Of a stretch of DNA of 33,151 nt, positions 6,328 through 23,719 are shown one piece after another; positions within the stretch are counted from its first letter, which is position 1, and each line of letters opens with the position of its first letter. The DNA is from an uncultured Gammaproteobacteria bacterium (lineage in GTDB: Bacteria; Pseudomonadota; Gammaproteobacteria; Poriferisulfidales; GCA-002705445), in assembly GCA_913050095.1 (NCBI GenBank), contig CAJXAV010000014.1, forward strand, positions 1-33,151, read 5' to 3'. The notes under the pieces are model-generated. The model ran no database searches and was not told the DNA's origin. It saw only the letters and a program-made list of their open reading frames with translations. The translations under genes were made by a program, and so were the position numbers.

Positions 6328-8535
6328 ATGAAAAGTTTTTGGGATAAAGCAATAGAAAAGCATCGAAAAGGTAAAGGTATTAAGGCTAGAACAAATAGAG
6401 GTCCTAAACTTAAAGCTTCTGCGAAATATGGTGGTATGGCAGAAAGACAAGTGCAAATGCATCTTGAGCTTCATTTGGAACCTATATTATCCAACCAAAA
6501 AGGTATTATAGGCCCTGCGAAAGATCTTTGTTTGTTTAGCATGCAAGATCAAGAAAGATTCATTCAAACTGTTGGTAAAATATGTGATCTTGATATGGAG
6601 TTGGCTTATGAATTTTGTCATCATGGTGTCGAATCGCTAAGGTTGTTAGACGAGTCCCAATGGTCAATATGGATAGAAAAAATAGAAGAAGTTTTTGATA
6701 AGAGTGGAATTCAAGAGTCCATAAAATTTATGGATGAAATTCATTTTTATGCAAATAATTTAACAGGATCATCATCAAGCATTGATTTCATAAATTTTTC
6801 AAAAACTATAGAATCTCTTCTGACCGGATTGAACGGAAGACCATTAAAAGTTGAAATGTCTGACAAAATTTACACTGATACAGAAACAATATATTTACCA
6901 GAAAGGATTTCATCTCAGAAAACAAAGGAAGAAAATTTTCATTTGATAAAAGCTAGTGCGATTCATTTATGGGCGCAAACATATTATGGAACTTGGAGGA
7001 TAAGCAAGGACGCTTTTGATAAGTATAGCGACAAGAACAAAGCAATAAAAGCTTACCATTTATTAGAGACGGTAAGACTTGATGAAAAAATAAAAAAAGA
7101 TTTGCCAGGAGTTGGTAGAATTATTGAAAAGTTAAATCCTAGAAAGCAATTATTAAATATTTCAAAAAATTTTAATAATGCGATAAATTTACTTTCAAAT
7201 GATAATTCAACTTTTAAAAATTCTTTAGAACTAATAGATTCGATTATAGATGATATTGATAAAATACCTGATTCACCTTATTCAGGAAAATTTGATATAG
7301 ATATTGCTGTCACGGTATCTGAGGAAAGAAAAAATCAAGATAAAATTAATTTTGAAAAAGCCCTTGATGAACTTCATGAACAATGGAAAGAAGTTGAAAA
7401 CGAACCTGATGAAATAAATAATAATGAAAATAGTTCTGAAAAAACATTTTCTGTGTCACAAGAAAACAATGAAAATGAATATGATGTGGTTTTAGAGTAT
7501 GGTGACAGCAATATTACTCCACCAGAAAATATAAAACAGATTATGGACTCTATAATTCAAGATTTTGGCGAAATTCCCGAAGATTATTTAGAACCTGCAG
7601 GTGATGGTGGCTATAACAATGAAGAAAATGTTGATCAAACCTCCAATGAATATGAAAATTATGATTACGAATTTTTATATAATGAATGGGATCATGCAAG
7701 ACAACAGTACAAAAAAGATTGGTGCAAACTGAATGAAGTACCTATTGAGGGTATCAGTACTAATTTTATAGCAGATACGCTAAATAAATATCGAGGTCTT
7801 TTAAGAAATATCAACAGAACTTTTGAAGCTCTAAGACAAGATGAAAAAAGGCTTAAAAGACAAAATTACGGAGATGAAATTGATATTGACGCATTTATTG
7901 ATGCTTATATCGACTTAAAGCAAGGAAAAGAAATCGATGAAAAACTCTTTACAAAGCTTAATAAGGTTGAAAGAAATGTAGCGGTAATGTTTATGATAGA
8001 TATGAGTGGCTCTACTTCTGGATGGATTAATAAAATGGAAAAAGAATCTCTTGTCCTTTTGTGTGAATCTTTAGAAATTCTTGGCGACACATATGGAATT
8101 TATGGTTTTTCAGGAAAAACAAGAAATAGGTGTGAAGTATATAAAATTAAAAATTTTGACGAAAAATATGATAATGATGTTAAAGACAGAATATCGAATA
8201 TTCAAGCAATGGATTACACAAGAATGGGAGCAAGCATAAGGCATCTAACAATGCTTTTAAATAAAGTTGAAGCAAAAACAAAGTTGCTTATAACTTTATC
8301 AGATGGAAAACCGGATGACGTTGATGGATACCGAGGTACATATGGAATTGAGGATACAAAAAAAGCACTTATCGAGGCAAGATTTCAAGGTATTCATACC
8401 TATTGTATAACTATTGATGAAGAGGCTATGGATTATTTACCATATATGTATGGGAAATCAAATTTTGCAGTGATTAATCAAATTGATAAACTGCCAACAA
8501 AAGTATCTGATATATACAGAAAAATAACAGCATAA
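6328..8535 (+). CDS. NorD/CbbO-family von Willebrand factor type A (MIDAS) protein
   Basis: 735 aa. The C-terminal VWA domain has MIDAS DxSxS (MFMIDMSGSTSGW), a TRMGASIRH segment and LITLSDGKPDD. The C-terminus LPTKVSDIYRKITA and the N-terminal region (IYLPERI, HLWAQTYYGTWR) resemble NorD/CbbO activators. A long acidic linker separates the two parts. Confidence 0.82.
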   Translation: MKSFWDKAIEKHRKGKGIKARTNRGPKLKASAKYGGMAERQVQMHLELHLEPILSNQKGIIGPAKDLCLFSMQDQERFIQTVGKICDLDMELAYEFCHHGVESLRLLDESQWSIWIEKIEEVFDKSGIQESIKFMDEIHFYANNLTGSSSSIDFINFSKTIESLLTGLNGRPLKVEMSDKIYTDTETIYLPERISSQKTKEENFHLIKASAIHLWAQTYYGTWRISKDAFDKYSDKNKAIKAYHLLETVRLDEKIKKDLPGVGRIIEKLNPRKQLLNISKNFNNAINLLSNDNSTFKNSLELIDSIIDDIDKIPDSPYSGKFDIDIAVTVSEERKNQDKINFEKALDELHEQWKEVENEPDEINNNENSSEKTFSVSQENNENEYDVVLEYGDSNITPPENIKQIMDSIIQDFGEIPEDYLEPAGDGGYNNEENVDQTSNEYENYDYEFLYNEWDHARQQYKKDWCKLNEVPIEGISTNFIADTLNKYRGLLRNINRTFEALRQDEKRLKRQNYGDEIDIDAFIDAYIDLKQGKEIDEKLFTKLNKVERNVAVMFMIDMSGSTSGWINKMEKESLVLLCESLEILGDTYGIYGFSGKTRNRCEVYKIKNFDEKYDNDVKDRISNIQAMDYTRMGASIRHLTMLLNKVEAKTKLLITLSDGKPDDVDGYRGTYGIEDTKKALIEARFQGIHTYCITIDEEAMDYLPYMYGKSNFAVINQIDKLPTKVSDIYRKITA

Positions 8536-18495: not shown

Positions 18496-18858
18496 CTATG
18501 CAATACTAGATTTTGAACTATAGGAACTATCTGATGACCATAATTTCTCAAGGCTATAAAAATCTCTTGTTTCATTTAGCATTATATTGACTACAACATC
18601 AAATAGATCAATCAATATCCATTCACCGTTAGATTCGACACCTTTTATAAATCTTCCATAACCGTTTTTTTTAATATTTTCTGTTACCTCACTGCCTATT
18701 GCTTTAATATGGGTAGATGACGTACCAGTACCTATAAAAAGAAAATCTGTAAAATTAGATTTTTTACTTACATCTATTATTACAATATCCTGTGTTTTAA
18801 GATTTTCTAAAGATTCAATAACAATATTTTTTACTATGTCTATATCTTTTTTACTCAT
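18496..18858 (-). CDS. rsfS: Ribosomal silencing factor RsfS
   Basis: 120 aa with SLENLKTQDIVIIDVSKKSNFTDFLFIGTGTSSTHIKAI and GEWILIDLFDVVVNIMLNETRDFYSLEKLW. Confidence 0.95.
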   Translation of the reverse strand: MSKKDIDIVKNIVIESLENLKTQDIVIIDVSKKSNFTDFLFIGTGTSSTHIKAIGSEVTENIKKNGYGRFIKGVESNGEWILIDLFDVVVNIMLNETRDFYSLEKLWSSDSSYSSKSSIA

Positions 18859-19492
18859 AATCTTCCAAATAAAGCTTATTTCTTTTTATATACGACATTA
18901 TTGAACCAGGTATTTTTCCTTTTACACTTTCTTTTTTTGATATCGCATTTCTAATATCAGTTGATGATATATTATATGATGCAGTTTCATAAATAAAAAT
19001 ATTTTTTTCTTTGTTGCTCATAAATAGTTTGAAGTCAGAAGTTGTCTTATCTAATATCTCAGAACTCATGCTTTCTATACTTTTTGTATCAAAATTTGGT
19101 CTATTAATAACGATTATACTAACATCTTTGATTATACCTTCATAATTATACCAAGATTCAATATTAAGAAATACATCTAATCCCATTATTAAACATATAT
19201 CTTCATTATTTCTTTCTTTCTTTATATTTTTAATAGTTTCATAACTATAAGAAATACCTTTTTTGATAATTTCAGATTTATCAGCTACGAAATTATTTTC
19301 ACCAGATGACGATATTATTGATACCATGTTATATCTATGATTTTCATCAGCATGAAAAGATTTATTTACTGGCGATATGTACGTTGGAATTAGCCTAATT
19401 TCAGTGAACTTAATAAGTTCCGACAGTTCATTTAATGGGTTAATATGCCCAAAATGTATTGGATCAAAGCTACCACCTAAAACACCTATCAT
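18851..19492 (-). CDS. nadD: Nicotinate-nucleotide adenylyltransferase
   Basis: 213 aa with MIGVLGGSFDPIHFGHINPLNEL, LIMGLDVFLNIESWYNYEGI, and a C-terminal ISSTDIRNAI motif. It is the first gene of nadD-rsfS-rlmH. Confidence 0.96.
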   Translation of the reverse strand: MIGVLGGSFDPIHFGHINPLNELSELIKFTEIRLIPTYISPVNKSFHADENHRYNMVSIISSSGENNFVADKSEIIKKGISYSYETIKNIKKERNNEDICLIMGLDVFLNIESWYNYEGIIKDVSIIVINRPNFDTKSIESMSSEILDKTTSDFKLFMSNKEKNIFIYETASYNISSTDIRNAISKKESVKGKIPGSIMSYIKRNKLYLEDYE

Positions 19493-19578: not shown

Positions 19579-20991
19579 ATGACAGATCACTTAGTATTTT
19601 TAACGGGAAAATTAGCTAAAATATCCTTAGAAAAGGTTTTGTCTGATATTAGCTCTAAAAATAAATTTACCTATGATGTTATCGATATTGGAGTAAATGT
19701 TGCTGCATTAGCAACAATAAAAATTATCATAAAAAAGATAAAGTTAGATGATATAAGTAAAGCTACAAAAATAATTATTCCAGGGCGTTGCAGAGGAAAT
19801 ATAGAAGAACTCGAAAAATTCTCAAATAAAAAATGCTTAAGAGGTCCCGAAGAACTTAAAGATATTCCTGGCTTTTTAGGTATGCAAGGAAAAGATCTTG
19901 ATCTAAGTAAGTATGATACAAAAATTATTGGTGAAATAACTGAGGCACCAAATATGAGTATCGAAGAAATACTAGATCAAGCCTTTTTATATAAAAAAGA
20001 TGGCGCAGATATTATTGATATTGGTTGCTTGCCTAGTACAAAATTTGATCATTTATCTGAAACAATTCAAGAATTAAAGAATCAAGATTTTATAGTGAGT
20101 GTAGACTCACTTGACACTGATAATTTAATAGCCGGTGCAAACGCAGGAGCAGATTTTTTGCTAAGCCTTCAGGAAAAATCTATTTGGGTTATGGATGAAG
20201 TTGACTCAATTCCAGTAATTATTCCAGATTATCCACAAGAGGAAAAAAATTTCTATAAATTAATTAATAAATTATTAAAAGATAATAAGCAATTCATCGC
20301 AGATTCCATACTTGAACCTATTAATTTTGGTTTTACTGATTCGATAGTGAGATATCAAAATTTAAGAAAAAATTTTCCGAGTGTTGAAGTAATGATGGGA
20401 ATTGGAAATCTAACTGAATTGACGCATGCTGACACAGCAGGCATGAATGCCCTTTTATTTGGCATAACATCTGAATTGAATATAAATTACGCATTGTGTA
20501 CGCAAGTAAGCGAACATTGCAATAAAGCTATTATTGAGGGAAATTTTGCAAGAAGAATAATGTATTCAACAAAAAAATATAGCATGCCTCCAAAAGATAT
20601 TTCAAATAAACTTTTGAATCTTCACGAAAGAAAACCTTTTCCATATAAAACAAATGAACTTAAAGAAATGTGGAAAAATGTAAAAGATAAAAACTATAGA
20701 ATATATGTGAATGATGACGGTATTCATGTATTTAATAACAGCAATTTTTATACTGAAAAAGATGCTGCTGAATTTTATCAATACCTAGATATTAAAAATG
20801 ACGACGGGCATGCGTACTATCTTGGAATGGAATTAGCAAGAGCAGAAATTGCCTATCAATTAGGTAAGAGGTATGATCAGGATGAATTATTGAAATGGGG
20901 ATGCTCAGTTGATATATCTGAAGATGATCTGATGAGATTCAAGACAGCTGGGCACACAATGAGAAAAATTAAAGAAAATAAGAAGGATTAA
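19579..20991 (+). CDS. DUF6513 / dihydropteroate synthase-like protein, probable C1-cofactor (tetrahydromethanopterin) biosynthesis
   Basis: 470 aa. Starts LVFLTGKLAKISLEKVL and has DHPS-like barrel segments GEITEAPNMSIEEILDQAFLYKKDGADIIDIGCLP and FIVSVDSLDTDNLIAGANAGADFLLSL. It is paired with DUF447 and MfnB-like genes. Confidence 0.85.
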   Translation: MTDHLVFLTGKLAKISLEKVLSDISSKNKFTYDVIDIGVNVAALATIKIIIKKIKLDDISKATKIIIPGRCRGNIEELEKFSNKKCLRGPEELKDIPGFLGMQGKDLDLSKYDTKIIGEITEAPNMSIEEILDQAFLYKKDGADIIDIGCLPSTKFDHLSETIQELKNQDFIVSVDSLDTDNLIAGANAGADFLLSLQEKSIWVMDEVDSIPVIIPDYPQEEKNFYKLINKLLKDNKQFIADSILEPINFGFTDSIVRYQNLRKNFPSVEVMMGIGNLTELTHADTAGMNALLFGITSELNINYALCTQVSEHCNKAIIEGNFARRIMYSTKKYSMPPKDISNKLLNLHERKPFPYKTNELKEMWKNVKDKNYRIYVNDDGIHVFNNSNFYTEKDAAEFYQYLDIKNDDGHAYYLGMELARAEIAYQLGKRYDQDELLKWGCSVDISEDDLMRFKTAGHTMRKIKENKKD

Positions 20992-20992
20992 A

Positions 20993-21562
20993 ATGACATA
21001 TGTAAGAGAGACAATTGTTACTACGAAAAATATAGATAATTCAATTAAATCCTCCCCTCTTGGGATATACATCGATAACAAAGTTCTAAAAATAAAACCT
21101 TTTAAACCGTCTACTTCATTAGATAATATTATTAGAAATAATTCAGGAGTAATAAACTATATTGATGATGTTAGGTTATTTGCATCGGCTATAACAAAAA
21201 AAAATATAGTAATAGGTTATGAAAATGCTAAAAAAATAGATTGCTCGAGAATTAAGAACTGTATTTCGCATACAGAATTTGTTGTGAAAAAAGTTGAGAA
21301 TGATCAAAAAAGACCAACTATAATATGTGAGCCAGTACATGAAGAAATACATAAAATGTATTACGGATTTAACAGAGCAAAATCTGCAGTTATAGAACTA
21401 TGTATACTTGCATCTAGACTTGGTATTATAGATGATAAAAAAATTGATGATGAAATTAAGTACCTTAAAATATCAATAGATAAAACAGCTGGTGAAAATG
21501 AAATTGAAGCTTGGGAGTGGTTAATGGATTATATAAATAAATATAGGGATAAAAATAAGTAA
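20993..21562 (+). CDS. DUF447 family protein, associated with tetrahydromethanopterin pathway loci
   Basis: 189 aa with RETIVTTKNIDNSIKSSPLGIYI, LKIKPFKPSTSLDNIIRNNSGVINYIDDVRLFA, YYGFNRAKSAVIELCILASRLGII and ISIDKTAGENEIEAWEWL, a DUF447 signature. Confidence 0.85.
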   Translation: MTYVRETIVTTKNIDNSIKSSPLGIYIDNKVLKIKPFKPSTSLDNIIRNNSGVINYIDDVRLFASAITKKNIVIGYENAKKIDCSRIKNCISHTEFVVKKVENDQKRPTIICEPVHEEIHKMYYGFNRAKSAVIELCILASRLGIIDDKKIDDEIKYLKISIDKTAGENEIEAWEWLMDYINKYRDKNK

Positions 21563-21563
21563 A

Positions 21564-22247
21564 ATGTCAAAAATTTTAGCAAGCATAAAAGATTTATCTG
21601 AAGCAAAACTTATACTAAATACAGAAGTTGATATTATTGATCTTAAGGATCCCTCAAATGGTGCTTTAGGAAGATTATGTAAAAATGATATTGAAAAAAT
21701 AGTTGAATATGTTGGCCAAAGAAAACTTACTAGTTCAACTGTAGGGGATTTACCAAATAATATTAATTTAATATCAAAAAACGTTAAAGAAATTTCATCA
21801 ACAAATATTGATTTTATAAAGATCGGTGTCTATGAAAATAGCTATGTTGAAACTTTATGTAATATTAAATCAAATAAAAAACTAATTGCAGTTTTTTTTG
21901 CCGATAGGTTTCTTCCAACGAATGAAGAAATTATACAACTTAAAAATTCTAATTTTTATGGTGTGATGGTTGATACATCAAAAAAGAAATCTGGTAACTT
22001 ATTTAATTTTGTGACATATGATGATATTGATGATTTTTTAAAATCTGCTAGAAAGCTTGGTTTGGTTACAGGTGTGGCTGGATCTATTAACGAAACTCAC
22101 ATCAAGGAATTAATAAAATTAAATCCTAACTATATGGGGTTTAGAGGAGCTTTATGTGAAGATAATACTGCAAGAAGTTCAAGCATCTCCAAGAATAACG
22201 TTAATAATATTGTAAATTTAATTAAATTCGACAATACGAATAATTAA
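21564..22247 (+). CDS. (5-formylfuran-3-yl)methyl phosphate synthase-like protein (MfnB/DUF556)
   Basis: 227 aa with ILASIKDLSEAKLILNTEVDIIDLKDPSNGALG, DFIKIGVYENS, FYGVMVDTSKKKSGNLF, LVTGVAGSINETHIKEL and PNYMGFRGALC, matching the DUF556/MfnB pattern. Confidence 0.88.
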   Translation: MSKILASIKDLSEAKLILNTEVDIIDLKDPSNGALGRLCKNDIEKIVEYVGQRKLTSSTVGDLPNNINLISKNVKEISSTNIDFIKIGVYENSYVETLCNIKSNKKLIAVFFADRFLPTNEEIIQLKNSNFYGVMVDTSKKKSGNLFNFVTYDDIDDFLKSARKLGLVTGVAGSINETHIKELIKLNPNYMGFRGALCEDNTARSSSISKNNVNNIVNLIKFDNTNN

Positions 22248-23719
22248 ATTTTAAAGGCTTTTCTATTAAAAAATATTGCACTATAAAGAAAAATTAAGAA
22301 CATAAACAAATATAATATTTTGTATCCATGTTGAGATAAAGGCGTATATCCGTTCCTTTCAATGATCTCTGCATTTATAACACCTTTTTTTTGAAAAGGA
22401 ATATTTTTTAATAAATCTCCAGACGGAGATATGACTGCTGAAATACCACTATTTGCAGCCCTAATAGAATATCTTTGGTTTTCAATTGACCTAAGTCGTA
22501 AAGCGTCTAGATGCTGATATGGAGCAAGAGAGTCGCCAAACCAACCATCATTTGAAACATTAATAATAAAGCTACTTTTACTATTTTTTACAAGAGATGA
22601 CAAAGAAAATATACTTTCGTAACAAATAGATGCGTAAGCTTCAAATTTTCCAACTTTTATATTATTAGGGGTTTCACCTGTTGTTATGTCTTGAAAGGAT
22701 AAGTTAACGTAAGAATAAAGCCTAGACAAAAAATTTCTAAAAGGTAAATATTCTCCAAAAGGAACAAGATGCTTCTTATGATAGATATTATTAGGGTTTG
22801 AAATATTTATAATAGAGTTATAATAAATATTATTATCAAGAAAAAAACTGCCGGCTACTAAAACTGATGTGTTTGAAATTTTTTTTCTTATAGAATCATA
22901 ATAATTCTTATTGATATTATTAAAAGGAACTGGAATAACTGCTTCTGGCCATAAAATAATATCAGGTGCAATATTATTTAAGCCCAAAGTAATTGTGTAC
23001 AAATCATCCATTCTCTCTTTAATTTCATTTTTTGTATAAGAAAGTTTATTTTCGTTATTTGGCTGAATTATCGAGATATTTATTTTTTCATTCCCTTCAA
23101 TAGTCCAATCCTTTGAGAATATTGAAATATGTGTTACGAATAGAAATATTACTATAGATAAAAAAAATTTTTTATTACTATTTTTAATAATATTTAAAAT
23201 TACAACTGAAATTAAAAATATTAAGAAAGTTACTCCATGCACACCAATTACGGGATAAAAACTTATAAAAGGAGTTGCTATGCCTGATTGTCCAAAATTA
23301 AACCAGGAAAAACCTGTAAAAAATAAAGATCTAAAAATTTCAAAAATGGTAATTAATACAGAAAGAATGATTAATATAAATCCTTCATCAAAACCCAACT
23401 TTTTTTTTAAGATACAAGCAAAAATAATTGGTAATACAAAATATAATGACAAATATATTATAAAAATTGATAAAAAAAATATATTTAAAAAATTATTTGC
23501 ATCAGAATAAGAACTTATTACATTTTGTAACCAATATGTACCTATTAAAAAATAACCAAATGCAAATAATGATGATTTTATAATTGCGTCTTTAATGTTA
23601 TCTAGATCAAGCAACATTAAAAATGTTACAATGCTCACAACTGATAATATTTGTATATTATATGGTGAAAATGACAAAGTGTATAAACTGCCAATAAAAA
23701 AACAAACTATATATTTCAT
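22244..23719 (-). CDS. lnt: Apolipoprotein N-acyltransferase
   Basis: 491 aa. Multi-TM N-terminus plus nitrilase-like domain with ILWPEAVIPVP, HKKHLVPFGEYLPFR, ASICYESIFS and NVSNDGWFGDSLAPYQHLDALRLRSIENQR. Confidence 0.97.
   Translation of the reverse strand: MKYIVCFFIGSLYTLSFSPYNIQILSVVSIVTFLMLLDLDNIKDAIIKSSLFAFGYFLIGTYWLQNVISSYSDANNFLNIFFLSIFIIYLSLYFVLPIIFACILKKKLGFDEGFILIILSVLITIFEIFRSLFFTGFSWFNFGQSGIATPFISFYPVIGVHGVTFLIFLISVVILNIIKNSNKKFFLSIVIFLFVTHISIFSKDWTIEGNEKINISIIQPNNENKLSYTKNEIKERMDDLYTITLGLNNIAPDIILWPEAVIPVPFNNINKNYYDSIRKKISNTSVLVAGSFFLDNNIYYNSIINISNPNNIYHKKHLVPFGEYLPFRNFLSRLYSYVNLSFQDITTGETPNNIKVGKFEAYASICYESIFSLSSLVKNSKSSFIINVSNDGWFGDSLAPYQHLDALRLRSIENQRYSIRAANSGISAVISPSGDLLKNIPFQKKGVINAEIIERNGYTPLSQHGYKILYLFMFLIFLYSAIFFNRKAFKI

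Follow-up and report, generated by a model that had tools for sequence, protein, structure and literature searches.

In textbook methylotrophs the complex that processes formyl-methanofuran (formyl-MFR) is redox-dead. Carbon from their H4MPT branch reaches folate through free formate and formate-H4F ligase (FtfL) (PMC539335). Genes for H4MPT and methylofuran are grouped in islands, as described for Methylorubrum extorquens and Methylosinus trichosporium (orf19-orf20-afpA-orf21-orf22; PMC3615186, PMC8141765), and MyfA, MyfB and Orf17 are needed for methylofuran in M. extorquens or M. flagellatus (PMC8141765). As for the redox-active counterpart, Fwd, FwdB was recorded in no bacterium in a 2020 study (PMC7331816), a 2023 survey placed FwdB, by transfer, in a limited array of bacteria and Fhc exclusively in aerobic methylotrophs (PMC10100899), and Actinobacteria from Hakuba carry a fwdDBA-ftr-fwdC operon (PMC7325909).

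The window analysed here (the whole stretch of DNA, 33,151 nucleotides long, from an uncultured gammaproteobacterium) holds a trio of ORFs within 19579-22247, all on the + strand. The first-pass annotation had described them as separated by single nucleotides, with stop-A-ATG at both junctions, and coordinates as well as junctions (TAAaATG at 20989-20995 and at 21560-21566) were verified in the sequence. The trio, presumably co-transcribed as one unit, is listed below together with its two conserved neighbours.

18851..19492, - strand, nadD (conserved upstream neighbour; a landmark outside the pathway)
19579..20991, + strand, DUF6513/DHPS-like protein (470 aa; C-terminal pterin-binding-like part, TIGR00284 type)
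20993..21562, + strand, DUF447 protein (189 aa; PF04289, PF20766, PDB 3b5m)
21564..22247, + strand, MfnB (227 aa; predicted 4-HFC-P / (5-formylfuran-3-yl)methyl phosphate synthase; PF04476, MJ1099)
22244..23719, - strand, lnt (conserved downstream neighbour and landmark; PF20154, PF00795)

The lnt and mfnB genes overlap by 4 bases at their stops. Like the Methylorubrum and Methylosinus islands, this locus includes MfnB (Orf22 in Methylosinus) and is one of several separate islands, but it consists of three genes only, with no mfnE or afpA beside them. Elsewhere in the window (6328-8535), a 735-aa VWA-domain protein (PF13519 only) lies between cinA and a short protein without Pfam match.

Profile searches placed all three proteins in the families proposed for them at first reading, with TIGR00284 matched below its curated cut-off by the DUF6513 protein (E 2.8e-57, 194 bits against 257). 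This protein reached PF20123 above cut-off (E 4.6e-19) and PF14251 and PF00809 weakly, below cut-off; it is 78% identical to its L012 counterpart, and a sequence search of the PDB returned no solved relative for it. An AlphaFold model was set aside (mean pLDDT 38.7, two rows). Its most likely role, to which we give about an even chance, is in pterin handling during H4MPT biosynthesis, in a dihydropteroate-synthase-like step. The DUF447 protein has both its N- and C-terminal domains (PF04289 DUF447_N, 2.7e-23; PF20766 DUF447_C, 7.7e-18) and matches PDB entries 3b5m (1.4e-16) and 2iml (1.4e-4); it presumably acts at some step of the same cofactor biosynthesis. MfnB matched PF04476 (4-HFC-P synthase, E 3.1e-56, 191 bits) and the solved M. 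jannaschii MJ1099 (PDB 4rc1/4u9p, 8.8e-20), with which the lysines and aspartates of IIDxK and DTxxK (presumably the catalytic, active-site residues) align identically; it is predicted to make the furan precursor of methanofuran/methylofuran.

DUF6513 is carried by 45 of the 369 sampled Gammaproteobacteria. We compared 18 stretches around it in other gammaproteobacterial genomes, plus L012, and found DUF6513-DUF447-MfnB contiguous and in the same order in 13/18. The trio keeps this order between nadD and lnt in the source genome (G000), G001, G007 and L012, and in G012 (family f2 of the same taxonomic order) it stands beside lnt, with two extra ORFs before nadD; because both order and place are kept in these five, the cassette is not a chance arrangement. 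In the congener G007, overlaps of 4 to 8 nt stand in place of the window's 1-nt gaps, so that it is the tight gene coupling, rather than the exact gap, that is conserved. Cassette dN/dS against congeners was 0.06-0.23 where measurable (dS being saturated or unreliable), which is only roughly indicative of purifying selection. We reject recent horizontal import, given the conserved position and a GC content (28.6%) matching that of the window (28.0%). The gene order of the trio is an old and commonplace one, and by itself the cassette adds only another host.

The source genome is 1.08 Mb in size and 96% complete, and the other pathway genes looked for in it were found on contigs other than that of the cassette. 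The expectation that the host has H4MPT-linked formaldehyde oxidation, with its genes scattered, held: besides two copies of fae (on C23 and C3), we recovered mtdB (PF09176), mch (TIGR03120, 413 bits), RFAP synthase (TIGR00144, 185 bits), FTR and FwdABC (TIGR03119, TIGR03121, TIGR03122, TIGR03129), spread over at least four contigs. Scattered H4MPT/methylofuran islands are known from Methylosinus too (PMC3615186). A single run on C23 (L013) comprises RFAP synthase, mtdB, a MyfA-like ATP-grasp gene, mch, a MyfB/MptN-like ligase gene, an Orf7/CitG-like gene, fae and a PTPS-family gene. The second fae (L014:6228-6776, on C3) is more divergent and stands alone. We are highly confident that the cassette and the scattered pathway together provide H4MPT and MFR biosynthesis serving formaldehyde oxidation. 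The xoxF/mxaF genes, also proposed for searching, are absent from the source genome (best match to the PQQ dehydrogenases 39.6 bits, cut-off 480); methanol as a substrate is hence unsupported, and formaldehyde presumably arises from a source other than methanol dehydrogenase. Contig C6 encodes a PhsA/DmsA-like three-subunit Mo oxidoreductase operon (L140:2234-6843) and a second Mo oxidoreductase (L141:9655-13038, 747 aa) adjoining a flavin reductase; one of these two Mo/W oxidoreductases could be a formate dehydrogenase.

We propose that the cofactors from the cassette would serve a route in which formaldehyde is taken to formyl-H4MPT by Fae, MtdB and Mch, and FTR then moves the formyl group to MFR. 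From there, formyl-MFR would be oxidised to CO2 by FwdABCD, with electrons passing to the ferredoxin FdxA and on to an FprA-type ferredoxin-NADP reductase (FNR), or a second FTR (FTR2) would move its formyl group to the N5 position of H4F, so that free formate is bypassed. 5-formyl-H4F cyclo-ligase (FCL) would then spend ATP to form methenyl-H4F, which FolD would reduce to methylene-H4F for the serine cycle. The branch point of C1 flow would be formyl-MFR, not free formate. For the order as a whole, such a branch point, with Fwd leading to CO2 (NADPH as end product) and FTR2-FCL-FolD leading to the serine cycle, is a proposal to which we give roughly even odds, with the Fwd part firmer than the FTR2 part.

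FTR2 is encoded on contig C4 of the source genome, beside FCL and FolD. It is over the cut-offs of TIGR03119 (300 bits, cut-off 292.6) and NF002554. Members of its clade share 67-100% identity, compared with 37-43% to other FTRs. The clade is monophyletic (support 100), with ten conserved positions switched; all FTR types have 62 conserved columns in common, and Glu245, which we take to be the catalytic residue of FTR, is kept in 15/15 FTR2 sequences. Across 16 FTR2 loci from six families, FTR2 has FCL next to it in all 16 and FolD in 13 cases, and 11 of the loci continue into serine-cycle genes (sga, mcl, mtkA, mtkB, hpr). Such neighbours stand beside FTR2 in the congeners G001 and G007 and in G011 (mtkA passing the cut-off for malate-CoA ligase); the source contig ends just past folD, and they are visible only in these and other relatives. 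The serine-cycle aminotransferase (L084:4657-5895, L152:9399-10670) scored best, below cut-off, against BhcA (aspartate-glyoxylate aminotransferase).

FTR enzymes yield N5-formyl products, and FCL consumes N5-formyl-H4F. Because the product of the one meets the substrate of the other, FTR2 -> FCL -> FolD would be a chemically complete replacement for FtfL, as judged from gene content and the chemistry of FTR and FCL. A dedicated second FCL is ruled out, since the gene is single-copy in these genomes, and FCL therefore does housekeeping work as well. We lean, by a little, towards assimilation running via FTR2 to 5-formyl-H4F and on through FCL and FolD to the serine cycle; MFR might, however, remain attached to the complex, as in Fhc, and this would leave FTR2 without free formyl-MFR. 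As in the M. extorquens entry through FtfL (PMC539335), C1 would pass through the H4MPT branch before methylene-H4F and the serine cycle, but with FtfL absent and FTR2-FCL-FolD in its stead, free formate would not be needed.

FTR2 might instead be a second H4MPT formyltransferase, brought near FCL and the serine cycle by shared C1 regulation, a reading in keeping with the two family cut-offs it passes, the 62 columns shared by all types and the retained glutamate. The genome, however, already has a Fwd-linked FTR, and the separate clade with its switched positions, the invariable adjacency of FCL and the lack of FtfL in the order all speak against a duplicate function, which we place on the unlikely side. 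A use of FTR2 in charging H4F, as proposed above, accords with the distribution of FtfL (PF01268), which is over cut-off in none of the 20 genomes of the host order. In the class sample, FtfL occurs in 2/11 genomes with FTR2 versus 31/39 without it (Fisher p 3.6e-4), a contrast that, once relatedness is counted, comes down to 3 independent FTR2/FtfL pairs, none contrary, and is not significant. The f87 genomes have FTR2 and FtfL together.

Alternatively, H4F could be charged by other means (glycine cleavage, serine hydroxymethyltransferase or direct condensation with formaldehyde), with the H4MPT branch being only dissimilatory or detoxifying. Many Gammaproteobacteria do without FtfL, which is absent from most of the 55 relatives, among them ones that have no H4MPT genes; the lack of a methanol dehydrogenase points the same way. 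Yet serine-cycle genes adjoin FTR2 and FCL, and FTR2 itself would be left unexplained, which makes this account unlikely, and we retain the transfer of formyl groups from MFR to H4F by FTR2 as the preferred reading of the assimilatory arm.

The dissimilatory arm rests on the operon of contig C26 (L049, - strand), which reads fwdD, fwdB, fwdA, ftr, fwdC, fdxA, FNR. Where the first-pass annotation had looked for fhcABCD, a formyl-methanofuran-processing operon is indeed present, but it is of the archaeal fwdDBA-ftr-fwdC type and not Fhc. The FwdB of the source genome scores 389 bits against archaeal FwdB (5t5i_B) versus 48 bits against the Fhc chain 6s6y_B, and its FwdA 469-471 bits against archaeal FwdA versus 341 against 6s6y_A. 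FwdD matches FwdD structures (2ki8, 1.1e-14; 8rja_D, 2.3e-12) and scores 57.6 bits with NF042908, below the narrow cut-off of 175. All 19 of 19 Fwd-type FwdB sequences retain the four cluster cysteines together with the metal-ligand cysteine of SVCHGPS; the Mo/W-ligand cysteine is present in that of the source genome and in 0/27 of the Fhc-type FhcB. In the FwdB tree the Fwd-type sequences and the archaea stand apart from Fhc (support 100, branch 1.9). Relatives of FwdB are bimodal in Gammaproteobacteria (66-100% identity in 14/369 genomes, 25-31% in most other positives), and in a wider phylum sample only the 25-31% (Fhc-like) kind was found outside the host. Genes for FdxA and FNR lie next to the Fwd operon in 16/16 loci with complete context, and next to the operon in 0/15 Fhc-only loci; the reductase of the operon is of the FprA/adrenodoxin reductase type (1e-100).

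With Fhc, the C26 operon shares subunits A, B and C, FTR and the operon order B-A-FTR-C, and differs in keeping the ligand cysteine of FwdB, in having FwdD and in its linkage to FdxA and FNR; we classify it as archaeal-type Fwd rather than redox-dead Fhc, with the activity of the complex being a prediction. Archaeal Fwd/Fmd has in common with it the FwdA, B, C and D homologues and the catalytic and cluster cysteines, but here ftr lies inside the operon, and FdxA and an FprA-type reductase are found with no FwdF/FwdG polyferredoxin in the operon. Closest is the Fwd-type operon of the Hakuba Actinobacteria (PMC7325909) and of the transferred bacterial FwdB (PMC10100899), with ftr inside and the same order; unlike the Hakuba case, the host here is gammaproteobacterial and has the methanopterin pathway (fae, mtdB, mch), the ferredoxin and FNR. 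Bacterial Fwd is thus already known as a family; we found no description of it being used next to a full H4MPT pathway and with a dedicated ferredoxin/FNR outlet. A literature search for FTR2 or gammaproteobacterial Fwd returned none (earlier mention in Adam 2019, Hemmann 2019 or Kalyuzhnaya 2005 is possible).

Formyl-MFR is thus probably oxidised to CO2 by the archaeal-type FwdABCD, with FdxA and the FprA-type FNR as the likely electron route. It is improbable that the complex works in the ordinary Fhc manner, only hydrolysing formyl-MFR to formate with FwdB as a scaffold as in Methylorubrum: the hydrolase fold of FwdA occurs in both types and Fhc is the form known from bacteria (PMC8141765, PMC10100899), but the metal-ligand and [4Fe-4S] cysteines and FwdD are kept, and ferredoxin and FNR are linked only to the Fwd type.

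Fwd and Fhc operons also occur in tandem in several families (G030, G137, G252), the host genus having Fwd only; at L143, L144 and L080+L081 (G252, G137 and G030) the tandem lies inside one H4MPT supercluster. Such tandems suggest different jobs for the two complexes in one cell. One family of the host order has Fhc-type and Fwd-type operons (L075, G014:C19, and L076, G016:C49) in different genomes, so the types appear to turn over quickly within a family. The FhcB of L078, L104 and L112 has lost the [4Fe-4S] cysteines as well (SPFCGIASDD), seemingly a further step in the decay of the redox subunit.

That the cassette is a relic, or has another role without active H4MPT/MFR chemistry, is hardly credible: the genome is small and streamlined and the genes are scattered, but every pathway gene tested is there with an open reading frame, and congeners keep the cassette at low dN/dS.

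Both the free-formate/FtfL step and the redox-dead formyl-MFR complex seem to be replaced here, and the C1 rewiring (Fwd plus FTR2) of the host order appears to be new, with a likely move of the branch point as read from the genomes. If this is true, 5-formyl-H4F, usually regarded as a dead-end folate, would be a main-line intermediate, and an archaeal CO2-forming enzyme would be at work in a bacterial formaldehyde pathway. The order would then hold a natural link between archaeal-type and folate C1 systems that is independent of formate ligase, and with it a new module for synthetic methylotrophy.
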